From Tremella fuciformis (Eukaryota; Basidiomycota; Tremellomycetes; Tremellales; Tremellaceae), in contig CP136490.1 in assembly GCA_032768795.1 (NCBI GenBank), forward strand, positions 682,001 to 746,000: DNA of 64,000 bases. Direction: 5' to 3'. The position numbers and the translations under genes were made by a program. Of the stretch, positions 36,848 to 62,900 are shown piece by piece; within the stretch, counting starts at the first letter, position 1, and each line of letters starts with the position of its first letter. The notes beneath the pieces were generated by a model. That model did not search any database. It had not been told where the DNA came from and worked only from the letters and a program-made list of their open reading frames with translations.

Positions 36848-36931
36848 TTCGACAAGTCGCGGTAGATAGAACGCGTCAACAAACTCGTCGACCTTGCCTA
36901 TGCACCGCCAGCCTCGAAGTGGTCCTCCGTC

Positions 36932-41224: not shown

Positions 41225-41243
41225 ACATGCTCGCGAGGGGAGG

Positions 41244-41365
41244 CGACGGAAATAGGTAGTACGCTCACATGAGCTTGACTCAGCCTCGAGTAGCCTCGTC
41301 GAGGCACACACATCCTCGACGAGGTTGTGCCTCGACGAGTTTCATCCTCGACGAGGCAGGGGAAG
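41244..41365 (+). repeat. 3' LTR of element D, first segment
   Basis: Matches the start of the 5' LTR; cut after GGAAG by element E and resumed at 47,429. Confidence 0.93.
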
Positions 41366-41847: not shown

Positions 41848-41849
41848 GT

Positions 41850-41859
41850 ATCCATTGCT
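41850..41859 (+). other. Self-priming primer-binding site of element E
   Basis: ATCCATTGCT is the reverse complement of AGCAATGGAT at 41,676-41,685 in the LTR; 10 nt, close to the 11 nt known for Tf1. Confidence 0.65.
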
Positions 41860-41986
41860 CAACCCCTTTAGTCCTTGCTCGTCCCTCGTCCTCTCGTCAA
41901 CAACATTTTCGCATTTTTGCCACCCAAGGCTTTCCCAGATACCCAAAAACTCTTGCTGACGCCCAGGTTAATCCATCCCTGTCACC

Positions 41987-43000: not shown

Positions 43001-43022
43001 GGGTGCCCCCACCTCTGGGGCT
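42976..43022 (+). promoter_or_regulatory. -1 ribosomal frameshift signal of element E
   Basis: Slippery heptamer A AAA AAC at 42,976-42,982, correctly phased with gag codons GCA AAA AAC. After a 4-nt spacer an 8-bp perfect stem follows: AGCCCCAG (42,987-42,994) with CTGGGGCT (43,015-43,022), with further GGT/ACC pairing in the loop. From the heptamer the -1 frame has no stop and runs into pol. Confidence 0.8.
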
Positions 43023-46000
43023 CTCAAAGGGGCACAACACGGTACATCACACACAACATTGGATAACGGCAACATCGCTACAGTCAACAATACTCCCCGC
43101 TTCACCCAAGGATCACCTATGCCTTCCCATCACCCTGAAGTATGGGAACACCAACTACGACACACTTGCTATGATTGATTCTGGTGCAACAGCCAGCTTC
43201 ATCAACGCAAACTTCCTCGACACTACAGACATACCAAGGATACTCAAGGATGAGCCTTTAGAGGTCTCAGTCATTGATGGACGACCAATTTCTTCTGGCG
43301 CCATCACACACCACACCGAACCCATCACCTTGTGCCTTCCAGGTCATGAAGAGACGCTCTCTCTTGACATCACATCACTTGGCACATACCCCATCATCCT
43401 TGGCCTACCATGGCTCTCTCGGCACAACCCAAGCATTGATTGGTCTAAACAGACTATCAAGTTCTCCTCCGCTCACTGCCTGGAGCAGTGTGACTGGCCT
43501 GATCAGCCTTTGGAAGGAGATTCTGCTCCTCAGTCACCAAGGAACCCTCGAGACTCAAGGAAATCAAGGATCCCAAGGACCCCAAGGAAAACGAGCTCAG
43601 GTAACCTGCCCAGCACCAAAGCTGCAGGTACGCCATCACCCAAGGACACAAACAACAACACCCACGGAACAATAACCTCGATCCCAAGGATATCACTCAT
43701 CAGTGCCTCTGCCTTCCGGACAGCTATGAAAACGGCAGAAATCTACGGCATCACCACTACAGCTCAAGTCTCAGGTCTCATCGACCCTCAACCTGCTCAG
43801 GAAGACGATGACGACACTATGGAACTCGACCTTCAGCAACTCAAGGAAATCATCCCCGCAGACTTCCACGACCATTTGGAAGTATTCAGAAAGTCCAACT
43901 CCGATAAGCTCCCAGAGCACAGTGCCTATGATCATGCCATAACACTTGAAGGCGATGCGCAGCCCAAGTTTGGTCCGATCTACAGCCTCTCTGAAGTAGA
44001 GCTCAAGGCTTTGGACGAGTACCTCAAGGAAAACCTCAAGAAAGGATTCATACGACCAAGTTCAAGCCCAGCTGGCTCTCCCATCCTCTTTGTCAAAAAG
44101 CCAGATGGATCCCTCCGACTATGCGTTGACTACCGACAGCTCAACAGCATCACCAGGAAAAATCGCTACCCACTTCCATTGATACAGGAATCTTTGGATA
44201 GGCTCAAAGGAGCTTCATGGTTCAGCAAAATCGACCTACGTGCCGCCTACAACCTTGTCCGCATTGCCAAAGGCGATGAATGGAAAACGGCATTCCGCAC
44301 ACGCTATGGACACTACGAGTACCTTGTAATGCCTTTTGGGCTTACAAATGCGCCCGCATCATTCCAAAATCTCATCAACGACGTCCTCAGAGACTTCTTG
44401 GATGTCTTCGTCATTGTATACCTGGACGACATCCTCATCTTCAGCAAATCAAAGGACAAACATATCGATCACGTCAAGCAAGTCTTGCAACGACTACAAG
44501 AGCATCATCTGTGGGCTAAGGCAGAAAAGTGCACCTTCTTCAAGCATGAGGTTGATTTCCTAGGCTACCTTGTCTCTGACAAAGGAGTCAGAATGGACCC
44601 TCACAAAGTTGAAGCTGTCACAAACTGGCCACCGCCAAAATCAGTTCATGATGTTCAAGTCTTTCTTGGCTTTGCCAACTTCTACCGACGTTTCATCAAG
44701 GCATATTCCAAGGTCACAGCACCCCTCACACAGCTCCTACGCAAAGGAGTTAACTTTGAATGGGGCAATACAGCACAAAACGCCTTCAACGCATTGAAAG
44801 CTGCTTTCACCAGCGCTCCCATCCTCCAGCACTTTCAACCAGGGAAACCCATCGTCATGGAGACAGACGCATCGGACTTTGCTATTGCAGGCGTCCTGTC
44901 ACACACATCAGACAACTCCAAGGAGCTTCACCCCGTTGCATATTACTCCCGGAAGCTTCAACCAGCGGAGCTCAACTACGAAATCTACGACAAGGAAATG
45001 CTTGCCATAGTGGAAGCATTCAAACACTGGCGACCATACCTCGAAGGCGCAAAGGAAATCACAGTCTACACCGACCATAAGAACCTGGAATACTTCACAA
45101 CATCAAAGGTGCTCAACAGACGACAAGCACGTTGGGCAGAACTTTTGGCAAACTTTGACTTCAAGATACACTACCGACCTGGAGAAAAGATGGGCAAACC
45201 CGACGCCCTGACCAGGAGGTCAGACCTTCAAGGGGGGAGTAGAGCTGCAGAAGCACCTCCACATACACTCCTCAAACCAGGGCAGTTCATCATTGGCGCC
45301 CTGGCACCTACCGATACTTCCGATACCCCAGTAAAATCCGACCTGATGACCAAGATAGAGCAACTTCAGCCTGAGGACCCTGTCCTTAAAGAGCTTTTGC
45401 CTTATCTGCATCATCCAGATCGACCTGTTCCCAGCACACTTCAAGGAAAACTCAAGGAATTCAGCCTCGACAGCAACATCATCCGATACAACAAGAAGGT
45501 CTACATCCCGGATAACTACGACCTCAAGATTGCCCTGCTTCATAAGAGTCATAACGCACCTACCGCAGGACACTATGGTCAACTGAAGACCTACCAACTC
45601 CTTTCACGACACTATTACTTCCCAGGGATACGACAATTTACCAACACCTATGTGGACGGATGTCACACTTGCGCACGGAACAAAATACCTCGACACAAAC
45701 CCTATGGCCCACTACAGCCACTCCCAATACCAACAAAACCTTGGCAATCAATATCTATGGATGCCATTGTTAAACTACCAACTTCCAATGGCTACGATTG
45801 CATTATGGTCTTTGTTGATCGCTTCACAAAACAAGCCCACTTCATACCTTTCAAGGAAGAAGGCTTTGATGCGCCCAACCTGGCCACAATGTTCAGACAA
45901 CACATTTGGCGACTCCATGGACTTCCTAAGGACATTGTCTCCGACCGTGGCCCAATCTTCAACTCTCAATTCTGGCGAGCCTTTGTCAAAGGACTAGGCA

Positions 46001-46929
46001 TCACACCAAACTTCTCTACGGCCTTCCATCCGCAATCAGATGGACAGACAGAGAGAGTCAATCAAGTCTTGGAACACTACCTTCGATCCTTCTGTGACTA
46101 TGATCAAGCAAATTGGTCATCACTCTTGGACTTAGCAGAGTACAGCTACAACAACTCTGTTCACACATCAACAAAGTTCACACCCTTTGAAGCCAACTAT
46201 GGCTATCATCCCAACGATACACTCTCGCCATTGCCATCTTCAGAAACCCAGACAGTCCCAGCAGTGGACTCACACCTTGGCACTCTGCGCTCCCTACACC
46301 AAACGCTTGCCGACAACATCAAATCAGCACAGGAGCACTACACCAAATTCTACAACCGAAAAATCAAGGAAATCACCAATAAGGACAAGCCTCTGTTCAA
46401 AGTTGGCGATCAGGTCTTCCTCAATCGCAGGAACATACAGACCTTGCGACCATCACTCAAACTTGATCAAAGGATGCTAGGGCCCTTCAAAATCATTGAA
46501 GCAACTTCATCTCCTCTGGCATTCAAGCTTGATCTTCCACCATCAATGGCCATACATCCGGTCTTTCATGTCAACCTCTTGGAACCAATGCGCAAGGGTC
46601 ACCCTCAGCAACCACAGGACCCTCCACCACGCATTGAAGTCGATGGCCAAGAAGAATACATTGTGGACCGCATCCTGGACTCACGCATCAGCTCAGACAA
46701 TGGTTACGACTACCTTGTCAGCTGGAAGGACTACTCCAGTGCCCACAACTCATGGGAACCCTGGGAGAATGTTCATCACACCACGGCCTACAATAAATTC
46801 CGTCGACAACATCTCAAGGATTCTCATTATCATTTCCCTCCGACCAGAGCACAACGCCAAACTCTACCTCAACCAGACACCAAAGAATCTGAACGGAGAT
46901 CACCAAGGCTCAGAGGACTTCGCCCTTAG
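43003..46929 (+). CDS. pol: Element E pol with chromodomain
   Basis: Open frame of about 1,308 codons, entered by -1 frameshift from gag rather than by its own start. Protease MIDSGATASFI; RT LRLCVDYRQLN, MPFGLTNAPASFQ, YLDDILIF; RNase H ETDASDFAIAGV and TDHKNLEYF; integrase zinc finger (HNAPTAGHYG...CHTCAR), DDE core with FVDRFTKQAHFI, HPQSDGQTERVNQ; and a C-terminal chromodomain (YIVDRILDSR...YDYLVSWKDYSSAHNSWEPWENV). The chromodomain marks it as a chromovirus, a group that steers integration to marked chromatin. No internal stop seen. Confidence 0.95.
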   Translation: MPPPLGLSKGHNTVHHTQHWITATSLQSTILPASPKDHLCLPITLKYGNTNYDTLAMIDSGATASFINANFLDTTDIPRILKDEPLEVSVIDGRPISSGAITHHTEPITLCLPGHEETLSLDITSLGTYPIILGLPWLSRHNPSIDWSKQTIKFSSAHCLEQCDWPDQPLEGDSAPQSPRNPRDSRKSRIPRTPRKTSSGNLPSTKAAGTPSPKDTNNNTHGTITSIPRISLISASAFRTAMKTAEIYGITTTAQVSGLIDPQPAQEDDDDTMELDLQQLKEIIPADFHDHLEVFRKSNSDKLPEHSAYDHAITLEGDAQPKFGPIYSLSEVELKALDEYLKENLKKGFIRPSSSPAGSPILFVKKPDGSLRLCVDYRQLNSITRKNRYPLPLIQESLDRLKGASWFSKIDLRAAYNLVRIAKGDEWKTAFRTRYGHYEYLVMPFGLTNAPASFQNLINDVLRDFLDVFVIVYLDDILIFSKSKDKHIDHVKQVLQRLQEHHLWAKAEKCTFFKHEVDFLGYLVSDKGVRMDPHKVEAVTNWPPPKSVHDVQVFLGFANFYRRFIKAYSKVTAPLTQLLRKGVNFEWGNTAQNAFNALKAAFTSAPILQHFQPGKPIVMETDASDFAIAGVLSHTSDNSKELHPVAYYSRKLQPAELNYEIYDKEMLAIVEAFKHWRPYLEGAKEITVYTDHKNLEYFTTSKVLNRRQARWAELLANFDFKIHYRPGEKMGKPDALTRRSDLQGGSRAAEAPPHTLLKPGQFIIGALAPTDTSDTPVKSDLMTKIEQLQPEDPVLKELLPYLHHPDRPVPSTLQGKLKEFSLDSNIIRYNKKVYIPDNYDLKIALLHKSHNAPTAGHYGQLKTYQLLSRHYYFPGIRQFTNTYVDGCHTCARNKIPRHKPYGPLQPLPIPTKPWQSISMDAIVKLPTSNGYDCIMVFVDRFTKQAHFIPFKEEGFDAPNLATMFRQHIWRLHGLPKDIVSDRGPIFNSQFWRAFVKGLGITPNFSTAFHPQSDGQTERVNQVLEHYLRSFCDYDQANWSSLLDLAEYSYNNSVHTSTKFTPFEANYGYHPNDTLSPLPSSETQTVPAVDSHLGTLRSLHQTLADNIKSAQEHYTKFYNRKIKEITNKDKPLFKVGDQVFLNRRNIQTLRPSLKLDQRMLGPFKIIEATSSPLAFKLDLPPSMAIHPVFHVNLLEPMRKGHPQQPQDPPPRIEVDGQEEYIVDRILDSRISSDNGYDYLVSWKDYSSAHNSWEPWENVHHTTAYNKFRRQHLKDSHYHFPPTRAQRQTLPQPDTKESERRSPRLRGLRP

Positions 46930-46941
46930 AGGGGGAGCTCC

Positions 46942-47423
46942 TGTCATGACCCGGCAAATTCACCACCAAGGTTGCGTCATTGACTCAGTTATCTGTCGCA
47001 TTTGTCTTCTTCATGGCTCTTGCTATGAAGGGAGATGACAGACACTTGACTATGCCCCGTCGGACACCCGGCATAGCTTAAGGATGCATAGAAGTGCATC
47101 GCGCATGACAACCGTCAGCCATGCACTGGACAGGGGATTTACTAGGAGATGGACGTATTCTGGACAGGTGACAGACATAGTATGGTCAGATACCAGACGA
47201 CCCCTTTTGTCTACATAAACCCCCTTCTTCTCGCAATTCGTTTGATTCTTCAGCAATGGATCTTGTGTCTTCTCTTCACACAAAGTCACTCAGTTGGTCT
47301 TAACCCAACACTTCAGTCACCTCAGTACCCAAGGCAGTCATCAAGCTCTACGAGCCAGAGACTAAACCCCTTCAGTACCCAAGGCAGACCTCTTGCTACC
47401 GCAGACTACCCGCAGGCGTGACA
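46942..47423 (+). repeat. 3' LTR of element E
   Basis: Same length as the 5' copy; the encoded shadow frames are identical, so the two are identical or nearly so. Confidence 0.95.
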
Positions 47424-47428
47424 GGAAG

Positions 47429-47578
47429 CTGCCACAACGATAACTCCGCATATAACGCCGACTCCCTCGACGACCTTGTAGAATGCCGCCGCCTGTTGCC
47501 CTCCTCATCACTCATAGCAAGTGCTGAGCGGGCAACAGGTGACCGGAATCCCATTGCCTCAGAGCTAAGATTCCGTCG
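47429..47578 (+). repeat. 3' LTR of element D, second segment
   Basis: Continues the LTR cut at 41,365 and ends TTCCGTCG before the right ATTTG copy. Has one copy of the 35-bp block that is doubled in the 5' LTR. Confidence 0.93.
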
Positions 47579-47583
47579 ATTTG

Positions 47584-47749
47584 GGCATCAGGCCTGAGGA
47601 TGGTGGGTCGGATACGGCGTCGGGTGTAGTCGTGGTTATGTCGGTTGATGTCGGATTGAATGTCGGCTGAGGGGCAAAGGCAGAGGCCGTGGGACTTTCT
47701 CCTAGTCATGTAGGGGACAGGCAGAGCGTCAGAGGGGCGGTCCACTACA
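47584..47749 (-). repeat. Left LTR of element C, second segment
   Basis: Continues the segment that stops at 36,516; matches 52,297-52,462 in length and sequence. Confidence 0.93.
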
Positions 47750-48082
47750 TCACCCCGGGCGGCAGAGAAGCTTGGTCCCCAAGCTTATGTGTATTTGAAG
47801 GGGTATGGATTGTGTGGTGTCAAGCACTGGCAAGGGTTGATACAGTTGGCTTCAAGCAAGTATTGACTGGCAGTTGGGGATAATTGGCACTGTGCTTTTG
47901 GCAGGAGTTGATGTGTGAAGAGTGATTGAGTCCAAGAGAGGGCCATTGAGTAGGCAAGAAAAGTCGATAGAGTGTTGATGGGTCGGTGAATTGTTGAGAG
48001 AGCTGTAGAGTTGGTGAAGGTGTGAGAGCCAGTCGGTGAATGTGCGTGAGCCTGCCAAGCTCATTTGCCAATGTGAGATGCC

Positions 48083-48787
48083 TCATGCTGAGCCTTGCTG
48101 ATTGTCCTGTGTAGCATGTACACCAATTTCCTTGTTGTTCCCCCAAATGTTGTCGCGTTGTGTGTGCCCATGTTGTAGCCTCAGGACATTTGTTTTGTGT
48201 GATATGCGGTCTCCTTGTTGGTCTTGTTGAATAGGTATCCAGATATTTGCGGGTTTGACAAGCCAGTCATATGAAGGTTGACTCCAGGTGATAGGCTTGA
48301 ACATGTTGTTGGTGTTGGTACAGTGTCGGTTGCAAGTGTATTGGTTGAATATGTGGCTGAAGGTGATATGATGTCGATGTATTACAGTACTGTTTGCCCA
48401 TTGTAGCAACTGGGTAGTTTGCCCAAAGATTGCTAGAAAATTTCGATGATCCTTGGGTGTGTGGTCAAAACCAAAGACAAATCGAAGGTACTGAAATACT
48501 TGTCCTGCAAGCTGGTCATTGATTTGGGGAAGTGGATTTTGATCAGCTTTGTTAACATTATTGATTTTTCTGAAATCAATGCAAAGTTGTTCCTTCCCTT
48601 TCTGGAGTCCACGGTGAATCAGATTGCTCAATAACTCCTTGTTTGACTGGCAGATTGTTGGGTACCTTGTTGGAGATGTTGTTTGGGAGATTGAAGGGTT
48701 GATAGTCGGTTGGATAGTTGCAGATAGTCGTCGGTCAGATAGTCGGTTGGATATTCGGTCGGATAATTGGTCGGATAGTTGGTTCAA
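48083..48787 (-). pseudogene. Element C degenerate pol remnant
   Basis: A minus-strand frame holds a recognisable scrap of reverse transcriptase (LCIDFRKINNVNKADQNPLP, matching the LCVDYRxLN...NRYPLP region of gypsy RT) followed by out-of-order or eroded sequence. No catalytic Y(L/I/V)DD, protease or integrase is present in the 1.2 kb left between gag and LTR. Element C therefore cannot move by itself. Confidence 0.7.
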
Positions 48788-48875
48788 TACTTGGTCGGAT
48801 AGTTGGTTGAAAAGTTGGTCGGATAGTCGGTTGGATCGGATATTTGGTCGGATAGTTGGTTGGATAATCGGTCGG
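48665..48875. repeat. Tandem TCGG(A)TAGTTGG-type repeats in element C
   Basis: About a dozen imperfect 12-nt units of the form GGTCGGATAGTT, encoding a Pro-Thr-Tyr repeat on the minus strand. Confidence 0.75.
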
Positions 48876-48961
48876 TGGTAGAGAAGCCATGGCTGGCGCT
48901 GACAGTCCTAGTTCGAGTTAGGTTGCCACTGTTTGCCATCATTGTTGCCTGTAGAGTTGAC

Positions 48962-49753
48962 TCAGTTGATAGGGGGCATGAATGTGGGATTGTCCAAATG
49001 TTGTCGAGGTAGAGTCACAGCTGGTTGCTGTGAAAAGGAGTGTGCCGGTATGGGGGAATGTCGATTGATTGGGTAGAGTCGATTTGTCGGAGTTCCAGAG
49101 CTTGGTTGATGTGGGCAATCCCTTCTCCAGTGATATTCACCACAGGTACAAGGAGCCTTTGGGATGCTAGGCTGGTCCATCAAGCCTCTAGTCTGGCTAA
49201 GGTGGTTGCTATCACTTACTCTTTGCGTAGGCACAATTTCATTTCTGTCTGTAATGTCAGGACCTTGGTGTGAGTCAAAGTTGCCTCTAAGGCCAGGCTC
49301 CACATCCATCAAGTGTCTTCTGAAGTCTTCCAGAGTGATAAAGGGTGTGATGCCTGCTTTAATCAAGGGGTGCATGCTCACAGGTATCCCTGTCAGCAAG
49401 TCCTCAATTAAGTCTGCTTCAGAAGTGCCTGGAGGGTAGACATAGCGCTGCAGATTAGTTTTGTCTTGGAAATAATCTGTGAAGGTCTCATTTGAACGCA
49501 GAGTGCGGTACAAACATTGCCTGCGCAGAGTAAGCTTGTGATTAGGCATGTAGAAGGCATTGCGCAAAGCATCTTTCCAAGTATCCCAAGTGCTGAGCTG
49601 TGCACGGCGTGCTGAGCCAAGCTGGGTAAACCAAGTGGAAGCCTTGCTTACCAGGATCAAAGGCAACTGCTGGAGAAGCGCCCTGTCAGAAGTGCCAGAG
49701 TACTCAAAGATAGCAGAGACCTTTTCTATCCATTGGTCAACATCTTCATCATC
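48962..49753 (-). pseudogene. gag: Element C gag, C-terminal part
   Basis: Capsid-like region (DQWIEKVSAIFEYSG, WKDALRNAF, DYFQDKTNLQRY, LIEDLLTGIP) and a knuckle-like CXCX3HX4C (CTCGEYHWRRDC), then a Pro/His-rich tail. Separated from its N-terminus by a solo E-type LTR; joining 50,855-50,236 to 49,748-48,962 gives 1,407 nt, in frame (468 residues). Confidence 0.82.
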
Positions 49754-50235
49754 TGTCACGCCTGCGGGTAGTCTGCGGTAGCGAGAGGTCTGCCTTGGGT
49801 ACTGAAGGGGTTTAGTCTCTGGCTCGTAGAGCTTGATGACTGCCTTGGGTACTTAGGTGACTGAAGTGTTGGGTTAAGACCAACTGAGTGACTTTGTGTG
49901 AAGAGAAGACACAAGATCCATTGCTGAAGAATCAAACGAATTGCGAGAAGAAGGGGGTTTATGTAGACAAAAGGGGTCGTCTGGTATCTGACCATACTAT
50001 GTCTGTCACCTGTCCAGAATACGTCCATCTCCTAGTAAATCCCCTGTCCAGTGCATGGCTGACGGTCGTCATGCGTGATGCACTTCTATGCATCCTTAAG
50101 CTATGCCGGGTGTCCGACGGGGCATAGTCAAGTGTCGGTCATCTCCCTTCATAGCAAGAGCCATGAAGGAGACAAATGCGACAGATAATTGAGTCAATGA
50201 CGCGACCTTGGTGGTAAATTTGCCGGGTCATGACA
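49754..50235 (-). mobile_element. Solo LTR of the element E family, in element C gag
   Basis: 482 bp, the reverse complement of the element E LTR with a few base changes, flanked by TCATC (49,749-49,753 and 50,236-50,240). No internal region: the remainder of a full element lost by LTR-LTR recombination. Shows that E's family inserted in this nest at least twice. Confidence 0.93.
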
Positions 50236-50855
50236 TCATCCTTGCCTCCAAATTTGGGCAAGTCGGAAGCCTTTAGCTTAGGATGATTACTGACACCAGC
50301 TTCATCAGTATAAGTGGTACTGCGGTATCTAGTGGCTGACTGTAAGTCTTCCAGTGCCTGCTGATGTGCTTCCTCACCTTGCTTTGCTGCTGTGAGGATG
50401 TCCTGCAGCTGGGTAGCATGCTCTTGCTCTGTAGCAAGAGTGTCATGCCTAGCCTGTTGAAGTTGCTGGTTGGCATCATGGAGCTGCTGTTGGAGCAAGG
50501 TGATCTGAGCTTGCAGGTCAGTGATACTTTGATGTTGTCCATCATGACTGGTATTGCTGTTGTCATTGTCGTGAACTGGGGCTGGCGTGATGTAGGAGTC
50601 GGAGTTGGAGTCGGAGTTGTTGTTGGTGTTGGTGTTGGTGTTGGTGTTGGTGTTGGTGTTGGTGTTGTTGTTGTTGTTGATGATGATGATCCTATTGTTG
50701 TCGTTGATAGTCTCCATGACCAAGGGGGTGAGGACTGAGTCGTTCTCAGTGTTGTTTTGGCGGTTTGGAATCGGACTGGTTGGGTCCTCAGCAGTGGGAG
50801 CTGAAGGGCCTGAAGTTGGATAAGGGTGCCGGCAGGTGGCAGGTCTGACAGACAT
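50236..50855 (-). pseudogene. gag: Element C gag, N-terminal part
   Basis: Starts with ATG at 50,855 (MSVRPATCRHPYPTSG). Contains a low-complexity Asn/Thr run encoded by a GTTGGT microsatellite, a Gln-rich coiled-coil (ITLLQQQLHDANQQLQQARHD) and the start of the capsid-like part (LKASDLPKFGGKDD), where the solo LTR enters. Confidence 0.8.
50607..50685. repeat. GTTGGT hexanucleotide microsatellite
   Basis: Run of GTTGGT/GTTGTT units inside element C gag. Confidence 0.85.
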
Positions 50856-51484
50856 GTTGAAGATGTTTTGGCTTTTGGGATAAGAGTATCCTCAATGCCA
50901 AAGAGAAAGGTGGTGGTGTGCTGTAGTAAGATTGAAGAGATGAGGGCGCACTGCAGCCCTAGAAGTATTAGGTGTAAAGAGAGAAGTGCGCTGGGGCACA
51001 GATGGTCAAAGCGCAATGCAGCTAGTAACCAGAAGAGATAGAGGAGAGATGTGCACAGGGGCACGGTGCGCAGGGGCACAGAGGAGCCTATAGCTCACCT
51101 TCTGCAGTAGGTCTTCCCAGAGTTCCACCGGAGTCTGAGGGGATAGCTTACCTAGTTGCACGAACTGATATGGGTAAGTGGTTGGCCAACCAGAGAGAGA
51201 GAAGAGAGATGTCGAAGTAAGAAAGATAGTCGAAGTAGGCAAAGTCGATGATGGTCAGGTAGCTAGTCTGACCAGATTGTGTTGCGTTGGGTACCTAATG
51301 AATTAGTTGTACAGAGGGATCCCTGTCTATTGCTACAGTAAGGAAAAGGATATTACTCGAGTATTTTTGGTTGTGTGTTGTTTTGGCCTTATCCCTAAGG
51401 CTTTTGTCAAAATGTCCTTAATGTCCTGTGTCTATGTGGGTCGGATCTGATCCAAACTGGCCAGCAGTTGAAGCAAGATAGTTG

Positions 51485-51590
51485 GTCGGGTGTTGAAGGG
51501 TGTTGAAGGATGTCGAAGGTTGTTGAAGGTTGTTGAAGGTTGTCGAAGGTTGTCGAAGGTTGTCGAAGGTTGTCGAGGGTTGTTGAAAGA
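51485..51590. repeat. GTTG(A/T)CGAAGG-type tandem repeat
   Basis: About ten imperfect copies of a 10-nt unit (TTGTCGAAGG / TTGTTGAAGG) in the leader of element C. Confidence 0.75.
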
Positions 51591-51700
51591 GTGTGAAGGG
51601 TAAAAGAGTGTCGATTAAAGAGTGTGGTGGTATAAAGAGTGTGATCTGACTGTACTGTGTGGTGTTGGTGTATGACTAGTGGCTAAGGCAAAGAAAATCC

Positions 51701-51717
51701 CCAGAACGGACCCCAGA
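51701..51717 (-). other. tRNA-type primer-binding site of element C
   Basis: Read on the minus strand, TGGGGTCCGTTCTGGGG lies 3 bases past the end of the right LTR. It begins with TGG, as for pairing with a tRNA CCA end, and no matching self-primer stretch was found in the LTR. This sets the orientation of element C. Confidence 0.6.
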
Positions 51718-51719
51718 TG

Positions 51720-52462
51720 TGTGTTGAGAAACAGTTTACCTTCTTCCTAACATATAATAAAGCCAGCCTCTGTCTGTAAGACTGATAGCTGTGTTGGGTT
51801 CCTTCGCGATAGTCAATGTCACACAGAGCAACACTAGTAAGTAAGTCAGTTAGGAAAAGTAGGAGGGCAGAGCCCAGACTCTGAGAGAGAGAGAGAGGAG
51901 TGAAGAAGAGTGGGGAGTCGGGAGTGAGAGAAGTAGGAGAAGAGGAGGTGATGATGGGTTCTCTCTCTCAGGCCTGGTTTATATACATGAAAGTCAGGCT
52001 GAGGAATCTACGGAGTACGTACGGTGTACGTACGATATCGTGGCGCGGCTGAGAAGTACGGAAGGAGAATCTACTACAAGAGGAAACTATTCTACGGGAG
52101 ACACGGGGAGGAAACGGGTGTGGCTTAAGGGTCTGCTACGGATTGTCCAGACATCAGCCGTATTAGTGTGAGTGGAGCACGATTGTCGAATGGTGCAGGA
52201 TCAGGCATGAGAGCTGAGGATCCTAGGTCGGATGGTGTGTCAGGTAAGGTCGTATTGTATTGTAGGTGGGTCCGAGGTGAGCCAGGCTGTGATTTGGGCA
52301 TCAGGCCTGAGGATGGTGGGTCGGATACGGCGTCGGGTGTAGTCGTGGTTATGTCGGTTGATGTCGGATTGAATGTCGGCTGAGGGGCAAAGGCAGAGGC
52401 CGTGGGACTTTCTCCTAGTCATGTAGGGGACAGGCAGAGCGTCAGAGGGGCGGTCCACTACA
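51720..52462 (-). repeat. Right LTR (5' LTR) of element C
   Basis: 743 bp, unbroken. On the minus strand it begins TGTAGTGG and ends CAACACA. Confidence 0.94.
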
Positions 52463-52635
52463 CCCCTCGACGAGTCTACCCTCCTCGCCCTAGGCTCACT
52501 CCGGACGAACACGAGAGGCGAGGCAGCCAGGGCCTTTGCTTCAAGTGCGGAAACGCTGGGCATCTTGCGCGCGACTGCCCAGGCTCGTTCAATCCCGGCC
52601 AACGCGTGAAGCAGGAGCCGCAGGGGGAAGCCTGA
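52463..52635 (+). pseudogene. gag: Element B gag, C-terminal part
   Basis: Resumes the gag frame after the right CCCCT copy. Holds the zinc knuckle CX2CX4HX4C (CFKCGNAGHLARDC) and ends at TGA 52,633-52,635, overlapping the -1 pol frame. Confidence 0.9.
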
Positions 52636-55600
52636 GGGGTCCCGAGCTACAAGGAGAAACTCGAGGCCCCGCTCCATACACACTCTCCGCCCTCACACCT
52701 CCTGAACACCCGACTTCACCTCCCAAATCCCCTAATCCATCGCCCACTCAACCACTCTCGACGGGGTCCGCTTCCCTCGTCGAGGAAGATCAATATGAAG
52801 AAGAAGCAGAGGACCTGGGGTCTTTGAAGGAGTCTGTACAGAGTGCTAGTGATGCTGAGGAATGCATGAGCGGTGAGGCTTGCAGGCTCGGAAGGCATCA
52901 AGCTGTCGTAGCAGGGAAGGTGGACGGAACGGCCGCCTGCATACTGCTGGATACGGGCGCTGGCGGGACCTTCATTGATCAGGACTACGCGCAAGGCCAT
53001 GGCATGACCCAACAAATGTTGGAACGGCCCCGGAAGGTTCTCCTGTTCGACGGCGAACCGTCATCTGCGGGGGAAATCACCCACGAAGTGATGGCTCCCG
53101 TGGAGGCGCTTGGGGAAACAAGTGAGGAACGACTAGCGGTTACGCGGCTCGCAGGTGCAGACGTCGTGCTAGGGTACGACTGGATGCAAGGAAAGAAAAT
53201 AGTCATGGACATGGGGGCTATGGAAGTCACCCGTGGAGCAGAACAGGTAGCCTCGTCGACGGTCGTCGAGGCTGCTACAAGTGAATTGGCCATTTTGGCT
53301 ACCAGAGCGAGAAGAGAAAAAGGGGAACGCGTGCGGCTTTCGCGCAGGCGCTCTCCAAACCACATCCCTCTGCGGATCAACCGATGGGAGCAGAACAGAC
53401 TCGCCGCAGAACGACTAAGAGCGACTGTCACCGACGAGCTCGAGGAAGTGGTGGGGCGCTTGGATGGGCACCTTGGGTTCGACGAGTATACCCTGTCAGA
53501 GGAGGAGTCTCAGGCGGTGCGAAGGGTTGTCCCGGAGTACTACCATGAGTTCCTCGATGTGTTCCATCCTCGTCGACCCGCCGACACGCTTCCGCCGAGT
53601 AGGGAATACGACCTACGGATCAGACTGAAGGAAGGCGCGGAACTGAGGGTCGCACCGCTCTACCAGCTGTCGCCGGAGCAGATGAGGGCGCTCAGGGATC
53701 TCCTCGCCAAAGAGCAAGCGGCGGGCAAGATCAGGCCATCAAATGCAGCGTATGGGTCGCCGAGTTTCTTCGTTCCTAAGAAGATTCCTGGAGAATGGCG
53801 AATGGTGGTGGATTACCGAAAGCTCAACGAAGCAACCGTGTCGGACGCGTACCCCTTGCCGTTGATCTCCCAAGTCACAGCCGATCTGGCAGAGTCAGAG
53901 TGGTACACCAAGTTCGACCTACCGGGAGCATACCAGCTTCTTCGCATGGCGCCAGGACACGAAGCCTATACCGCCTTTAGGACGCCTCTGGGGATGTTCG
54001 AGTCCCTGGTAGTGCAAGATGGCTTGAAGAACGCGCCAGCAGTATTCCAGCACTTCCTCAACGAGGTGCTTAGAGAGTTCGTTGGGCGAGGAGTGGTGAT
54101 CTACATCGACGACATCTTGGTCCACGCCAAGAGCCTCGACGAGCTTCGTTCCCTCACAAAGGCGGTACTCGAGGCGTTGCGGAAGGCGGGACTGTACGTG
54201 AAAGCGTCGAAATCCGAGTTCGAGAAGAGGAAGGTCGACTTCCTGGGCTTTGTCATCTCCCGAGAAGGCGTGGAAGCGAATCCGGAGTATGTGAAAGGCG
54301 TCGTGGACTTCCCAGCACCGAGCAACCTGCTCGAAGTACGCCGGTTCTTGGGTCTGGCAAACTATTACCGCCGCTTCGTACCAAACTTTGCCAAGGTAGC
54401 GCTGCCCCTAGTGTTGCTGACAAAGAAGGGAGTTCCGTTTGGTTGGGGAGACGCGCAGGCAAGAGCCTTCGAAGAGATCAAAAGGCGAATGAGCGAGCCC
54501 CCTGTATTGGCCCATTTCGACCCTGCATTCGAGACCATCGTGCAGACCGATGCTTCGCTCTACGGGTGGGGATTTGTGATATCACAGATTAACCCCTCGA
54601 CGAGCCTCGAGCACCCGGTGGCCATAGAATCTGGGTCGTTTTCGGGGGCAGAGTTGAACTGGACGACTACAGAGAAGGAGTTCCTGGCGATAGTGATGGC
54701 GTTCAAGCGGAAGCGACATCTCCTTCTGCAAGTAAGCTGTACGGTCCTCACGGATCATCACAACCTCAGCTATTGGATGGAGCCGAGGAAACTGAGTGGG
54801 CGGGTTGCGCGATGGGTCGACGCCCTGGCAGGATTCTCCTTCCGAATCGTGTATCGTCCCGGGCTCAAAGCGGCTTACCCAGACGCTCTGTCGAGGAGGC
54901 CTGACTACAAGCCTGATGGATTGGACCTGGAGGAGCAACGAGTGCAGGCCTTACCTGGGTTTGACCAAGGAAGCAAGGTCGAGACGTCGCTGGGGTACAT
55001 GCTTCGGGCACTCATCGAGGAGCCTCGACGAGGCTCGTCGAGTCCAGATCCAGAGGCAAGAGAGGATCCGCAGACGGGTACTCGGAGCACCTGGGAGGAG
55101 GATGAGGAATTCGAGCACGCTGGAGAAGAGTTGGAGAGGATCAAGAAGGAGGAGAACGGAGTGGTGATTGATGCGGCGGGATTCCCCAAGCTGTTTGGGT
55201 TGGTTCAAAGGATGGGCCTCGACGAGCCCACACGAGCCAAGGTAGAGCCTGGCGGGGCCCTGCGACTCAATGGGCGGCTATACCTCACTGGCAAGGGCGA
55301 TGGGCGGCTCCGAGCCATAAGGGATCGACATGAGGGGATCCTAGCGGGACATCCGGGAATCACCAAGATGTTGGAGTTGCTCAGGAGGGACGTCTGTTGG
55401 CTGGGGCTGCGGCGCGATGTTGAGGCCTACGTACAGGGTTGTGCCATCTGCCAGAGGACAAAGACAAGCAGGCAGCGCCCTCATGGTCTCCTCCAGAGTC
55501 TCGAAGTCCCGGAAGGCCCGTGGCAAGCAATTTCCATGGACTTCATCGAGGAGCTCCCCGGCAGTCAGGGCTTCAACTCCATCCTCGTCGTGGTAGACCG

Positions 55601-56606
55601 CCTGACGAAGTGGGCTATCTTCGTGCCGACAACGACTCGCCTCACAACGGCGGGACTCGTCGACCTCATCATCGACAATGTCGTAGCGCAGCATGGGTTG
55701 CCAAGATCCATCGTATCTGATCGAGGGAGCAAGTTCACTAGTCGACTATGGGGAGCACTGTGTGGGGCCCTGGGGATCAAGATCAGCCTGTCGACAGCCT
55801 TCCATCCCCAAACCGACGGGCAGACAGAGCGAGTCAATCAGGTCCTCGAGCAGTACCTACGGGTATTCTGCGATCACAGACAAGACAATTGGTCGAGTCT
55901 GCTGCAGAGAGCAGCCTTCGCCTATAACAATACCCAGCACTCGGCGATCAAGATGAGCCCGTTCGAGGCGAACTTTGGGTACTCGCCGCGATGGACTGAT
56001 GACTTGAGAGAGAGCGCCGAGCGAGCGGAGATACCGTCGGTCAAGGAAAAGCTTGGGTCCCTCGACGAGGTGCACCGATCTTGTCAACAAGCCATACAGC
56101 AAGCCAATGAGCGGTACGCCAAGTATTACGATGCAAAGAGAAGGGATGCGCCAGTGTTGAAGGTGGATGATATGGTCATGCTGTCGATGGAGAACATCAA
56201 GACTCGTCGACCCTCGAAGAAGCTCGACATCAAATGGGGGGGACCATACAAAATCCTCGCTAAGACGGGTCCATCAACGTACAAGCTGGAGCTGCCGGCG
56301 ACGATGAGGGTGAGCCCAGTCTTCAACGTCCTCCGTCTTAAGCCATACCACCCGCCGAGGATCCCTGGACAGACCTACGACCCTCCGCCACCAGTGGAGG
56401 TCGACGACGAGGGCCCTAGCTATGAGGTGAAGAACGTCGTCGACTCGAGGAAAAGGGGCAGAAAGGTGGAGTACCTCGTCGAGTGGGTGGGGTACGAAGG
56501 AACAGATGAGGAGATGACCTGGGAACCAGTGGAGAACATTACTGGTGCTCTCGAAAGCGTCGAGAGCTTCCACAAAAGGAACCCAGGGAAACCAAGAGGA
56601 ATATAA
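52536..56606 (+). CDS. pol: Element B pol with chromodomain
   Basis: About 1,356 codons, in the -1 frame to gag with about 100 nt of overlap. Protease LLDTGAGGTFI; RT WRMVVDYRKLN, catalytic YIDDILVH; RNase H QTDASLYGWGFV and TDHHNLSYW; integrase zinc finger (HPGITKML...CAICQRTK), DDE core and HPQTDGQTERVNQ; chromodomain (YEVKNVVDSR...YLVEWVGYEGTDEEMTWEPVENI). Unusual: the RT segment that reads MPFGLTNAP in A and E is VVQDGLKNAP here. No stop seen, but gag is broken by element C. Confidence 0.94.
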   Translation: MLQVRKRWASCARLPRLVQSRPTREAGAAGGSLRGPELQGETRGPAPYTLSALTPPEHPTSPPKSPNPSPTQPLSTGSASLVEEDQYEEEAEDLGSLKESVQSASDAEECMSGEACRLGRHQAVVAGKVDGTAACILLDTGAGGTFIDQDYAQGHGMTQQMLERPRKVLLFDGEPSSAGEITHEVMAPVEALGETSEERLAVTRLAGADVVLGYDWMQGKKIVMDMGAMEVTRGAEQVASSTVVEAATSELAILATRARREKGERVRLSRRRSPNHIPLRINRWEQNRLAAERLRATVTDELEEVVGRLDGHLGFDEYTLSEEESQAVRRVVPEYYHEFLDVFHPRRPADTLPPSREYDLRIRLKEGAELRVAPLYQLSPEQMRALRDLLAKEQAAGKIRPSNAAYGSPSFFVPKKIPGEWRMVVDYRKLNEATVSDAYPLPLISQVTADLAESEWYTKFDLPGAYQLLRMAPGHEAYTAFRTPLGMFESLVVQDGLKNAPAVFQHFLNEVLREFVGRGVVIYIDDILVHAKSLDELRSLTKAVLEALRKAGLYVKASKSEFEKRKVDFLGFVISREGVEANPEYVKGVVDFPAPSNLLEVRRFLGLANYYRRFVPNFAKVALPLVLLTKKGVPFGWGDAQARAFEEIKRRMSEPPVLAHFDPAFETIVQTDASLYGWGFVISQINPSTSLEHPVAIESGSFSGAELNWTTTEKEFLAIVMAFKRKRHLLLQVSCTVLTDHHNLSYWMEPRKLSGRVARWVDALAGFSFRIVYRPGLKAAYPDALSRRPDYKPDGLDLEEQRVQALPGFDQGSKVETSLGYMLRALIEEPRRGSSSPDPEAREDPQTGTRSTWEEDEEFEHAGEELERIKKEENGVVIDAAGFPKLFGLVQRMGLDEPTRAKVEPGGALRLNGRLYLTGKGDGRLRAIRDRHEGILAGHPGITKMLELLRRDVCWLGLRRDVEAYVQGCAICQRTKTSRQRPHGLLQSLEVPEGPWQAISMDFIEELPGSQGFNSILVVVDRLTKWAIFVPTTTRLTTAGLVDLIIDNVVAQHGLPRSIVSDRGSKFTSRLWGALCGALGIKISLSTAFHPQTDGQTERVNQVLEQYLRVFCDHRQDNWSSLLQRAAFAYNNTQHSAIKMSPFEANFGYSPRWTDDLRESAERAEIPSVKEKLGSLDEVHRSCQQAIQQANERYAKYYDAKRRDAPVLKVDDMVMLSMENIKTRRPSKKLDIKWGGPYKILAKTGPSTYKLELPATMRVSPVFNVLRLKPYHPPRIPGQTYDPPPPVEVDDEGPSYEVKNVVDSRKRGRKVEYLVEWVGYEGTDEEMTWEPVENITGALESVESFHKRNPGKPRGI

Positions 56607-56746
56607 CGCATGGACTACTGGCGGTGACGATGATCTGGATCGAGATTCGTCACCCAAGCTGAGTCCTATCCCTGCATCCCCTGTACAACATGAACAACAC
56701 GGCATATGAACATGAGCTAAGAAAGAACTATGTACACTATCTACAT

Positions 56747-58547
56747 TCACGACCCCGAACCACTCGCCTCCGCCACGTCGTCGAACATGGGCCCGACCAT
56801 CGCCCTAAGGTCCAGCCCCAGGAGCCTCGCGTGCCGCCTCGCCTCCTCGACGTGGTACGCCCTGTCCGCCGGGATGGACTGGGCCAGCGTGACATGGTGC
56901 TGAAGGACACCGATGTCGAGCCTCGTCGAGGGAGTCCACGACAAGGGAGCTGGCGCGGATGGGCGGGCAGGAGTCGACACCGGAGGCGGCGTCGGAGGCG
57001 GCACGGGAGCCGGCACGGGTTGACGAACCGACCGGCGAAGTCGGTCGGTGAAGGCGGCCGGGCCGACAACAGGCGTGGGGGCGGGAGTCGGCGAAGGCGG
57101 GTCGACATCCGCGAAGCTCACAGCCCGGCGAGCTCTGGGTGTCGAGGACGAGCCGGCGGGTCGTCGAGGAGTCGGGCTGGAGTTGAACGAGCAACCTGAG
57201 GCTGTGCCACAGGTGTAGCACTTCAACTTCGGCCCGCCTCCATCTAGGACCCTACACGGCAAGTTGTCCGAACGACACCGCTGGCATCGCTGGCGGCCGT
57301 TGAGCGTGCGGAGAGGTCGCCCTTTTGCCTGAGCCTGCAAGATCAGCGTGAGAGGCTGGAGAGTAGAAGACAACAACGCACCAGGGCCCATGGGAGGGTC
57401 CTATTCGATCCCCGGCCGAACGTTGGGTAGAATGGCCCTGGGAATGAGCGGGGACCTCAACAGATGGCGGACGTACCGAAAAAGGCGCGGTCCAGCGCAT
57501 TCCTACACCGGACTCGGGGGCCAGCCTCGAGTAGCCTCGACGACGCCTCGCTTCCCTCCCCATCGGATCCTCCACTGCCCGCTTCGGATTCCCCAACGGA
57601 TCCTTCGCTGCCCGCTTTGGATCCGTCTCCCGTCGAGATGCTCCCCTCCACGACGTCTTCTCCTACACCTGCGTTGTCCACGGCGGCCGGGAGAGCATCG
57701 GCTACCTCAGACACCCCAAGATACCGGGTTGAGGCTGAACACAGGCGAGAGGAGTACATGCCGCCAACAGGCGACACGCGACGACGCTTTGGGGTTGGGG
57801 AGAGGGGAGGCGGTATCGTTGGCAGGGGAGTGTTGCCTGGGGAACCGGGCGACTCGACTCGACGCCGGCGGCGTGGGTTGATTGCCGGAGTCGGAGAGCG
57901 GGATGGCGGAGGCATAGAAGGCGGGGGAAGGAGAAGGATAGGCGAGCCGAGGGGGACGAGGGGATAGGGCGGTATGATGGGGGATCCGGTCCCACCACCA
58001 ATGTAGGGGCGAAGAGGCCGAGGCGAGGCCGGCTCGAACGGCAAGGAGTGGGCTTCTTGATAGCGACTCTCGCCAGCAAAAGCCGCGTCGGAAGCCTGGG
58101 AAGACGGGGGCGAGGCGTCTGAGTAGCCGCTGGACGTAGAGGAGGTAGCACAGCTACTCTCCCTAGCGGCTCTGACGGTCCCCTGGTGCCGACGGATCTC
58201 GGCGTGTATGTCTGCTAGCGAGCGCAGAATCGCTGTACGCCCTGGGCATCAATACAAGCAGTAGGGTGGCTCAACAATCACTCACCGCTTGGCGCAGCAC
58301 TGGCCGCATCCGACCAGTCGAGCTCATCGACGAGCTCGTCGATCTCCTCGACCGGTGTGGGCTCCGGAGTTCGAGGACAGACCGCCCATCGAGGGAACAG
58401 TCGAGGAGGGGGAGCGTCGACAGCCGACTTGGGGGAGGATGGCGGCGTCGTGGGGCTGGGGGAAGGGGTTTTGGTCATCGTGACCAGGCGTAGAGGTCGT
58501 CCTCGGAGGACGATTTTGAGGGAGGGATCGGTGGCGTTGGAGAACAT
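56747..58547 (-). CDS. Element B antisense spliced gene, zinc-cluster-like protein
   Basis: Minus strand, convergent with pol (140 bp between the stops). Exons 58,547-58,286, 58,241-57,477, 57,437-57,382 and 57,334-56,747, with GT...AG introns of 44, 39 and 47 nt; the exons total 1,671 nt, giving 556 residues. A minus-strand TATAAA lies about 61 nt before the ATG. The N-terminal two thirds are Ser/Pro-rich with acidic (VEEIDELVDELDW) and basic (PKRRRV, PRRRRRV; likely nuclear) segments. Near residue 375 comes CX2CX6CX11CX2CX5C (RCQRCRSDNLPC...KCYTCGTASGC), close to the Zn2Cys6 pattern. The C-terminus is helical (ADRAYHVEEARRHARLLG). Probably a nuclear DNA- or RNA-binding accessory protein; role unknown. 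Confidence 0.78.
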
Positions 58548-58607
58548 ATGATGCGTTGGAGTGGAGAGTTTGGAATGGACGGGACGAGTAGCCTCGTCGA
58601 GAGGGGG

Positions 58608-58613
58608 TTTATA
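58608..58613 (-). promoter_or_regulatory. TATA box of the element B antisense gene
   Basis: TATAAA on the minus strand, about 61 nt upstream of the ATG at 58,547 and 0.6 kb inside the 3' LTR. Confidence 0.5.
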
Positions 58614-59227
58614 CCTTTTGGAGGGGACATGGCGGGGACGAGGGACGAGAGGGCACTTGACGACGAGAGCAGGCAACGCGACTTTTCACAACAGTTTGGC
58701 AACTTGTTGCCTAGCAACGAGCAACATGATCGACAGAAGGGCGTAGCGCGGAGCGGCAATCACCGGTTATCTCGCGGCGACTGCCGCATTGGGCAATCTG
58801 ACCCCGGCCTCGTGGCCGAGGTCGAGGTCGACTTACATACGCGCAAATTCCAGCATGAGACGCCTATAGCTCAGCAACGGGCGGGCTATCCAGCACAGGG
58901 ATCACCCTCGACACCACGCGCGTCGGGACACATGCGGGCTGCACACTACCTGTGCCCGTTAGTCACTCCACGACGGCAACACAGCCTACGCCCCGACTAG
59001 CGCCTAGAAAGATAGCACCAGCTGCGCGAGACCTCGAGCGACCAAGAAGGACGGACCGTCGACGAGACCAGGCCCTGCTTACACACCCACAGACCCTCGG
59101 GATCAGCCCTGCAAGGAATGACCAAAAGATACGGCTTAGCGCGCGGCGGGAGCAAAGGCTCAGGCCATACAAGCTGCCCCGCCTCGCCCGCCATCTCGCA
59201 GGAGCTCGATTTCAGAGGGGGGCAGAG
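58614..59227. other. Element B region between antisense promoter and 3' LTR
   Basis: About 600 bases without a supported gene. Ends with a purine-rich stretch (AGAGGGGGGCAGAG) directly before the 3' LTR, the likely polypurine tract. Confidence 0.6.
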
Positions 59228-59631
59228 TGTCACGTCGGCCACGCCTCCATGATCACCAAAGCACGCCTACGAGCCTCGTTCCAGCCCAGCACGCCTGTCA
59301 AACACGTGAGCCTATCGTCGATCCTCGAGTAGCCTCGACGACGCTCAAGTAGCCTCGACGACTTTAGAGCTCGAGCCTCGTCGATGGTGTTTCAAGGAGA
59401 AAGCCCAAGGCGGTGCAGAGGAGGGCACGGGTGATATATATACAAGTCCTCACCCGTAGACCGTCCTTAGCACCGTGGTATTGAGTCCCATGGATAGAAA
59501 GTAACGGCGCAGCCGTGTTGTCGACGCACGAGAGGCTGTAGGACACACCTTCTCGTGGAGGACAGAGACAGATCGACAGACAGCACGTGTGAGAGGGCCT
59601 ATCAGTCGACGACCGGCCAGGCCCCGTGACA
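59228..59631 (+). repeat. 3' LTR of element B
   Basis: 404 bp; I read it as identical to 34,504-34,907. Confidence 0.95.
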
Positions 59632-59915: not shown

Positions 59916-60606
59916 TGTTACGATCCGGTCACCGTTGCCACCCATACAGGCCCCCGACCGTCCGCCACCCGGATCGCAACACCCCAAGCTGGAATACCGG
60001 AAGGGTTCACTCTCCAAGCTGGAATCCCGGAAGGGTTCACTCTCCAAGATGGAACACTGGAAGGGTCTACCGCCAAGTGACGCCAGGTGGAATCAGGGAA
60101 TGCCAGGTGACGCCAGGTGAAGTCAGGTGACGCCAGGTGACCCCGAGTGGAACTAGGAACCCCGGCCGGCCCGTACTGGCGCCAAGGTGGCACCAGCCTG
60201 GAGTCAGGTGGAGTGAGTGGCAACTCCAGGTGAAGGAGTTGCGCACACGGATTTGCCACCCAGCCCGTAGACATATATAAAGAGCCTACTTCTTGATCCT
60301 TCTCCCCAAGGATCAATCTATCGCAAGTTACACCTAGTCTTAGAGCCTTGCACCGAGCCTCCCTTCGCTTCGTCTTTACCTTCGCTCGCCACGACGCCTA
60401 TCTCCGTGGGATCCTTCGAGCACTTCGACCATCGACATCCACACCGTGGCCTTCGTGGATTGTCGACCCTACTACGCCGTCCGACCAAGCCACAGGTTCA
60501 GTGGTTGTACCCCCTTCGCCTTCGGTGCAACCCGAGCTTGCCACATTACGACCACCGCCGTCTACTCGTCGCCGGACCTCAAGGCCGCCGGGTTCGAGTC
60601 GTAACA
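59916..60606 (+). mobile_element. Solo LTR F in element A integrase
   Basis: 691 bp, flanked by AAGCC (59,911-59,915 and 60,607-60,611). Ends TGTTACGA...TCGTAACA form an 8-bp perfect inverted repeat with TG...CA termini. TATATAAA at about 60,274 marks plus orientation. Holds tandem repeats. No internal coding region, so a solo LTR is the best reading; a MITE is the alternative. Confidence 0.85.
59985..60145. repeat. Tandem repeats in solo LTR F
   Basis: Three copies of a 27-nt unit (core GGAAGGGTTCACTCTCCAAG) followed by several copies of a GACGCCAGGTGA-type 10-12-mer. Confidence 0.8.
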
Positions 60607-61181
60607 AAGCCCAAGAAGGGTGGAAGAAGCAATATGATAAGCGTCGACGTGCACCGGACTTTCAAGTAGGGGACAAAGTCTGGCTAAATGGCAAGAACTT
60701 GCGCACGCTCCGTCCGACTAGGAAATTCGACCACCGCCACGTAGGGCCGTACTCCATACTAGAAAGGATAAACGAGAACGCATATAAACTGGACCTGCCT
60801 CCGGAATTGATCGCCAATCGAGTTCACCCAGTCTTCAACGTAGAGCTGTTGTCGCACGTTCGAGGGGCTCGAGTCGAAGCGCAACCCGCACTGGTCGCTC
60901 CGCCACCAGCCCTACACACTAGCGAAGAGGAGCTTTACGAAGTTGAAAGGGTACTGAAACGAGCTCGACGATCCCGGGGTAAGGCGAGGCAACTTGAGGA
61001 CCAAGTCCTTGTGAAATGGAAGGGGTACCAGCAACCGACTTGGCAACCAACAGACTCTCTAAAGGGAGACCCGCGGTTCGAGTCGTGGATGAAGGACATC
61101 GAGAACAGCCAAGTCGAATCCCTAGTATCCAATGCGAAACGGACAAGACGCGCCCCGCGCTGGAGAACTGAGTCGGCATGA
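60607..61181 (+). pseudogene. pol: Element A pol, third part (integrase end and chromodomain)
   Basis: Resumes in frame: GWKKQYDKRRRAPDFQVGDKV, RKFDHRHVGPYSILERI, HPVFNVELL, then a chromodomain (YEVERVLKRARRS...QVLVKWKGYQQPTWQPTDSL). Ends TGA at 61,179-61,181. Confidence 0.92.
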
Positions 61182-61213: not shown

Positions 61214-62900
61214 TCACTTGCGGCGGCCGCGCTTCGTCTTGAGGGCGCCAAGCGCGGTGCGCTGTGTCGCCTTCGTCTCACCGGCAGCCTTCTCCTTGGT
61301 CTGCAGTCGGGTCGCGCGGTGCGGGACGTCGGATTCCGACTCGAGAGACTCAGCTCGGGTAGACAGAAGTTGAGTAACCGAATGGTGCCGGTCGGGAGAC
61401 GAGTGAATGGAGGGCGCGGGCGAGTCCTCCAATAGCCGCTTCAAACCACCCTCACCGACCACCGAGGGACCCGCAACCCCCTCCTCAGCGCCTTCGGCCA
61501 TCGCGTCGTCCAAAGAGCTCCAGTCGAGCGTGGACACCAACGGAGGATCACCCGAGTCTAGCAGAGTGACTTGAGACTCGCCGCGGAATGCAGTCCGGTT
61601 CAAATGCTGCAAGTCAGACCTCGACAAGACCAAGACGAAATCCGACTACACTTACCTGATACTCAGAGTAATTGATTCTATAGATCTCCAAGATAGCATT
61701 ACGAGCTAGACCGGGTTTCGCGTCTGCAAGTAGAGCTGCCGCTTGGCGGTGAATCCCCGCAATCACGCCCTTGCGACGAACGACCTCGTCGGCGGGGAGA
61801 ACGAGTTGAGCTCGGGGCCCCAGAGCGGTGTTGGGCGAAAGGGTGCAGTGCTTCGACTTAATCATACACCCGAGACACCTATACGTCAGCGAAAATCGAG
61901 TACGGTAAGTCGAAAACATACTTTTGCGCCACATACCGCCTACCATCGACCTCCACAACCGGGCAGACGCAGAGTAGACCCGAGTAGCCCGACATGGGAG
62001 GGCGATTATGGGACACACAGGCTGCACAACGCTCCGACCCCATCAGGACGCCCCACGAGCCATCCTCGAGCGCTTCGAGGATATTAGACCCGGTATCCGC
62101 GGTGTCACCGGTACGAGTCGAAATGTACGACTCGATCCACGAGTAGAAGGACTCGATCCTCGAGTCGTCGTGTCCGACGACCTCGGGTTCTTTGAGCGGG
62201 TACCGATACACTCGGTTCTGACGCTTGACCACCAACTCTTCGCCTTCAACCCTTGGGAACACCCCACTCGGAGTTCGGCCCGCCTTGTTCGGCGAGGGCG
62301 TAGGGATCGGCTGGCCCGGGCTCGAGTCGGGGGCCGAACCGAACAAGTCGCTCAGACCGACCGCAGTAGCCGAAGACACGACTTTGGCAGGCGGTGAGGC
62401 GGTCTTGGGGAAGCCCAAAGGGCGATGAGCATGACCCTTTTGACTAGCCGGAGTCTCGGGAATGGTGCTCGAACCGAAGGGTGGTTGACGAGCGATAGGG
62501 GAGGGATCCAAGATGTGTTTCTTGGGCGGGAGGCGACCGACGGGAGCAAGGGGAGCCTTGAAAGGCGATTGAGGCGGCGGGAATACCGACTCAGCACGAG
62601 CAGGAGTCGACTTTACGGGGGAGGAACCCTAACAGCTTAGCTCGAAGTTCGCCTATGGCAGACTCGCATTCGACGTACGGATTTGTCCCTTTCTCGACGT
62701 AATGCCGCCTTCCCCGCAGCAACCAACTTGTCAACTTCAAACTTGAAAATGGCATTTTCGGGCTGCGCTTCGAGGTTCTCTCGAGCGGCCTGGAGCTGAA
62801 TTCGGTAGTCGTCCGCCGAGGCCGTACCGAGGTACGCCTCGTCGTAGGCATCTTGTATGCCCTGCTCGACATTGAATCCGGCCAATTCGTCGTCGGCCAT
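61214..62900 (-). CDS. Element A antisense spliced gene, zinc-cluster-like protein
   Basis: Minus strand, tail-to-tail with pol (32 bp between stops). Exons 62,900-62,679, 62,628-61,922, 61,878-61,656 and 61,606-61,214; GT...AG introns of 50, 43 and 49 nt with CTAAG/CTGAC branch sites. The exons total 1,545 nt, giving 514 residues. The N-terminus is helical and acidic (MADDELAGFNVEQGIQDAYD), followed by a Pro/Ser linker. A Cys-rich module is assembled across the second intron: CX2C (RCAAC), a CVC pair, then CX2CX6C (CLGCMIKSKHC). A helical segment (GVIAGIHRQAAALLADAK) and a Lys/Arg-rich tail (KTKRGRRK, likely nuclear) follow. Same place, strand and exon count as the element B gene, but little clear identity. 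Function unknown. Confidence 0.78.

Follow-up and report, generated by a model that had tools for sequence, protein, structure and literature searches.

A spliced antisense gene with a six-cysteine module in a chromovirus of Tremella fuciformis

A minus-strand frame at positions 56747-58547 of a 64,000-nucleotide stretch of the Tremella fuciformis genome (contig CP136490.1, 682001-746000; here called the window) runs against the sense of the LTR retrotransposon that contains it, is divided by introns and includes a cluster of six cysteines. This raises the question of whether the frame encodes a protein that the element has kept for its own use, and of whether the cysteine cluster was taken from a host transcription factor.

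Structure and setting of the antisense gene

The frame lies in element B, whose two LTRs (34504-34907 and 59228-59631, plus strand) are identical to each other, with CCGAG immediately 5′ of the first and immediately 3′ of the second. The paired LTRs, together with a pol (52494-56606, plus strand) in which Pfam recognizes RT, RNase H, integrase and chromodomain, identify B as a chromovirus. It is nested in a second chromovirus, A, and the end of the A pol (60297-61181) is found 3′ of B. Element B also holds a long insertion (35940-52296), which is bounded by identical 577-bp repeats (35940-36516 and 51720-52296) and consists of nested elements including a further chromovirus, C (pol at 42919-46929). 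The 3′ repeat of C begins 13 nt past its pol, leaving no room for an antisense gene in that element.

The antisense gene of B is located wholly between the pol stop (56606) and the 3′ LTR (from 59228). Its four minus-strand exons join into 1,671 nt, or 556 codons and a stop, and the only stop is the last codon. Exon 1 (58286-58547) opens with the ATG at 58547. Exon 2 (57477-58241) is proline-rich and encodes two basic runs, RRRRR (residues 211-215, about 57873-57859) and KRRR (residues 239-242, about 57789-57778). Exon 3 (57382-57437) is followed by exon 4 (56747-57334), which includes the stop, the predicted C-terminal helices and the six-cysteine module CX2CX6CX11CX2CX5C (57191-57286), reading CQRCRSDNLPCRVLDGGGPKLKCYTCGTASGC. 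The three introns, of 44 nt (58242-58285), 39 nt (57438-57476) and 47 nt (57335-57381), all have GT-AG boundaries, and the second contains an in-frame stop within the window copy. Two host ribonucleotide reductase loci contain five candidate frame-keeping introns of 41-48 nt, so the intron sizes in B are normal for this genome. An alternative intron 2 of 69 nt (donor at 57506) was set aside because the codons that it would remove are conserved across the aligned copies.

A sequence-only reading of this locus had described a spliced antisense gene of four in-phase exons, the second such gene of the window, with a TATA box, basic runs and a cysteine pattern spaced nearly as in fungal Zn2Cys6 regulators. 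This description holds: the gene is borne out by the joined frame, the GT-AG boundaries and the dN/dS values given below, the other antisense gene is that of element A, TATAAA is present at 58613-58608, both basic runs exist, the cysteine pattern matches exactly at 57286-57191, and its spacing is close to that of Zn2Cys6, the last spacer being one residue short.

Selection on the antisense frame

A search of the genome (28.1 Mb, 11 contigs) with window positions 57000-58000 returned 35 matches, of which 34 lay outside the window and were fetched as 32 regions; L035 and L036 cover different parts of a single stretch of contig C5. Nine of the 32 regions were interrupted or partial. All 23 uninterrupted copies retain GT-AG at all three introns, and the frame is open in 18 of them and broken in five (L022, L029, L034, L037, and L038); the window copy, counted separately, is also open. 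The sequence-only reading had named absence of the frame from other B copies as grounds for rejecting the gene, and the copies contain it.

The dN/dS ratios were calculated with the window copy as reference against five copies (L031, L032, L034, L037, and L038) that are 95% to 75% identical to the window over about 56601-58600; L040 was left out. In the predicted frame the values were 0.36 for L031 (bootstrap, 0.20-0.70), 0.20 for L032 (0.14-0.28), 0.18 for L034 (0.13-0.27), 0.21 for L037 (0.16-0.27), and 0.21 for L038 (0.16-0.27), against 1.03-2.15 for the two shifted frames in the same copies. Values for single exons were mostly 0.1-0.4; the value for exon 1 of L031 was 1.5, based on five changes, and exon 3 (18 codons) is too short to weigh. 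A ratio below 1 in the predicted frame only, with the other frames above 1, indicates that selection acts on codons and that the antisense protein matters. For the pol portion of the same copies, dN/dS was 0.03-0.10, and the predicted antisense protein thus evolves faster than pol yet is clearly constrained. Third-position bias is present in all four exons. Exons 2 and 4 have at least two stops in every sense frame in all six sequences (the window and the five copies), while the short exons 1 and 3 leave one or two sense frames open in the same sequences. Judged by its pattern of substitution, the frame is a real protein gene under codon-level purifying selection.

The copy comparison also revealed a conserved stretch (56601-56746) around the two convergent gene ends. 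Its divergence is 1-5% in the five copies, against a dS of 0.06-0.72 for their antisense frames, and 12% in L040. RNA folding of 56604-56750 gave no strong structure (z, −1.04). The stretch is possibly a two-way terminator.

Six-cysteine modules and a candidate promoter across chromovirus families

Downstream stretches of 3-4 kb were fetched for ten loci from 150 scored SH3_Tf2-1 matches and were searched for a six-cysteine pattern ending in C-[STD]-[FLIV], which was chosen after the first cases had been seen. The pattern follows pol in six of the ten loci (L041, L042, L044, L045, L047, and L050), representing five families; it is antisense in all six and sense in none, and it did not occur in any of the shuffles (20 of the loci and 10 of the window). 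L044 and L050 apparently belong to one family, and their 153-codon frames have a dN/dS of 0.175. L043 has half a module, and L046, L048, and L049 have none in the fetched 3-4 kb. Within the unspliced window, the pattern is found in B only. The antisense gene of element A (61214-62900, minus strand; 514 codons) has introns of 50, 43, and 49 nt (62678-62629, 61921-61879, and 61655-61607), and its six-cysteine module appears after splicing, being formed across intron 2.

BLASTP on the module links L044 with L042 (E value, 3e-05), L044 with B (0.001), and L045 with L041 (1e-04), while B and L042 match over a C-terminal stretch only (0.008) and L041 and A at 0.69. These similarities between families are weak. 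A genome search with the B antisense protein recovered no copy of the A gene, nor did a search with the A protein recover one of the B gene, and ten antisense ORFs (from the other families and A) had no Pfam match above the curated cut-off. Homology of the antisense genes across chromovirus families is likely, but it is not proved by these comparisons. The pol of B is 40% identical to that of C (1,031 columns) and 38% identical to that of A (160 columns), and a divergence of this order implies that an antisense gene common to them would be old. The modules in other families likewise argue for an older element gene. The antisense gene has the appearance of an accessory gene belonging to the elements rather than of a host fragment picked up by accident, and several chromovirus families have probably long carried genes of this kind rather than capturing them recently.

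Upstream of the B gene, the TATAAA lies 60 nt 5′ of the ATG (58608-58613, minus strand); TATAAA or TATAAG is kept in four of six divergent copies (L031, L032, L034, and L038) and is absent in L037 and L040. Farther upstream, the palindrome GTTGCCTAGCAAC (58706-58718) fits the X-box consensus of RFX factors, GTNRCC N0-3 RGYAAC, as stated in PMC10530576, and the consensus is found in L042 and twice in L044 as well. Over the 63 bp surrounding the palindrome, divergence is 3-10% in L031-L038 (five copies) and 23% in L040, in which the palindrome is altered and still fits the X-box. Divergence in the same five copies is 9-40% for intron 3, but some copies conserve introns 1 (2-18%) and 2 (0-33%) no less than the palindrome stretch. 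Both candidate promoter elements are internal (58.6-58.9 kb) and lie outside the 3′ LTR (from 59228).

The sequence GTTGCYNRGCAAC occurs at 100 places in the genome, compared with 5 for the reversed control. At least 36 of these places, among the 50 of the 100 that were listed, are situated 2.0-3.2 kb downstream of an SH3 match (13 in family B, 20 in family 1508, and 3 in family 1416, among the matches listed); 46 of the 150 SH3 matches were used, and the remaining 14 listed places may add more. Copies within one family are not independent, and the independent observation is therefore one of three families. Two X-box palindromes stand 52 bp apart in L044 (2175-2239), and such pairs recur elsewhere among the listed places in family 1508. 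Four loci with the six-cysteine module (L041, L045, L047, and L050) did not show the palindrome. The genome contains one RFX domain. It has no excess of the classical 14-bp X-box (4 places versus 5 for the control), and neither ribonucleotide reductase locus was found to have an X-box upstream.

Possible role and likeness to known antisense genes

On balance, we favor the explanation that the gene belongs to the element as an accessory gene and that its product is a nuclear zinc protein with a regulatory effect on the element that encodes it. A candidate internal promoter (palindrome and TATA box) would drive antisense transcription, probably under host RFX; the basic runs would allow nuclear entry, the six cysteines would bind zinc, the C-terminal helices would contact a partner, and the protein may then act much as HBZ does, controlling how its own element is expressed or integrated. 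Since the genomic RNA holds the introns in reverse orientation, they are not lost during retrotransposition. In the AlphaFold model obtained from two near-identical sequences, the mean pLDDT is 57.5, with a helical C terminus at about 81-89 and a poorly modeled six-cysteine module at about 37-47. A zinc-binding nuclear protein is the probable product; we infer transcription, zinc binding, and function from the features above, and the role of the protein by analogy with plant antisense ORFs and HBZ. A broader and less probable proposal is that an ancient spliced antisense gene, with a double CxxC..C module of variable form, is common to the chromoviruses of this fungal group, being switched by host RFX through an X-box in three families and acting as an HBZ-like self-regulator.

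Alternatively, the protein may serve integration or nuclear entry instead of transcription, with integrase, Gag or chromatin as its partner. The basic runs suit this possibility, and section 7 of PMC7264820 proposes nuclear localization and a role in retrotransposition for plant antisense proteins; we consider it a possible but rather unlikely account. It is improbable that the antisense transcript acts as RNA, by silencing or by base pairing to the genomic RNA, with the protein in a secondary place. The sequence-only reading had placed such an RNA opposite pol, which does not agree with the map: the gene is wholly downstream of the pol stop at 56606, and the mRNA read from it would be the complement of the genomic RNA in its 3′ part, not of the pol coding sequence. 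Complementarity of this kind would suit an RNA role, and PMC7175516 describes restriction of Ty1 by antisense RNAs, but third-position bias in the four exons and the 18 open frames among 23 copies show selection on the protein.

The same reading had suggested that the element captured a host Zn2Cys6 transcription-factor domain, and recent capture of this kind now seems very improbable. Six cysteines in the order CX2CX6C..CX2C..C are common to the B module and Zn2Cys6 regulators (PF00172), and the host is rich in Zn2Cys6 domains (123 PF00172 matches in the genome). However, none of these matches lies in the listed B copies (150 of 199 candidates scored), similar modules occur in other chromovirus families, and the last spacer of B (X5) is one residue short of the X6-8 in the spacing given in PMC5542705 (CX2CX6CX5-12CX2CX6-8C). 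The profile search that the reading had called for gave no Pfam family for exon 4 at an E value of ≤10, PF00172 included. NCBIfam likewise had no match for exon 4, Pfam had none in the ORFs holding exons 2 and 4, and a PDB search by sequence had none for the antisense protein at an E value of ≤10; a PDB fold search gave 40 matches at ≤10 and 0 at ≤0.001. The spliced protein had no match at ≤0.001 among 7,991 scored protein-database candidates, and the words of residues 333-556 recovered one 214-amino-acid protein, 99% identical, among 7,993 candidates; scoring was confined to the candidates sharing most words, so that distant relatives could escape it. A control query with B pol matched 218 of 7,986 candidate proteins (120 listed), those listed including proteins of Tremellales sp. 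Uapishka_1, Kwoniella shandongensis (these two being the best named relatives), and Rhizoctonia solani, and the database searched therefore covers fungal proteins. A chance open frame in G+C-rich DNA, which the long frames on both strands of the window might suggest, has a negligible probability, being contradicted by dN/dS, splice-site conservation, and the closed sense frames of exons 2 and 4.

Among the antisense accessory genes of LTR elements, that of B offers a case from a compact fungal genome with strong protein selection, three introns, a recurring putative zinc module in distant families, and a candidate promoter element. If the RFX link is true, it would tie the control of a retrotransposon to a host regulator. 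The case also suggests that some of the six-cysteine proteins annotated as hypothetical in fungi may be products of element genes.

By its placement between pol and the 3′ LTR and its retention in family copies (18 of 23 open), the B gene belongs with the antisense accessory ORFs. It resembles the plant genes Grande gene23, RIRE2, and Retand TRP28 in place, strand, and conservation among copies, and a nuclear or DNA-binding role has been proposed for plant LTR-retrotransposon antisense ORFs (PMC7264820 and PMC11963269). Retand is a non-chromovirus lineage with the antisense domain TRP28 (PF04195), for which Pfam gave no match in the B ORFs holding exons 2 and 4. Unlike the plant ORFs, the B gene has no Pfam match, three introns, and a six-cysteine module. 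Among fungi, brtn of Boty-like (BcGypsy1) in Botrytis cinerea is also an additional antisense gene of a Ty3/gypsy element according to PMC8365987; its host is an ascomycete, and it is likened to B by description, not by sequence. A figure legend in PMC2864245 names an additional ORF whose function is given as unknown and whose orientation is not stated. We noticed no report of an antisense six-cysteine gene in a basidiomycete chromovirus in the open-access literature searched, most subscription papers being outside its scope, nor any of the chromovirus form with introns, a six-cysteine module, and an X-box.

HBZ of HTLV-1 is a spliced antisense gene whose product is a nuclear regulator carrying a bZIP domain, and Pfam identified no bZIP in the B antisense ORFs. 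The B gene is likewise spliced and antisense, but its candidate promoter is internal, whereas that of HBZ lies inside the 3′ LTR. Antisense accessory ORFs as such are a known kind of gene, represented in plants, Botrytis, and HTLV-1.
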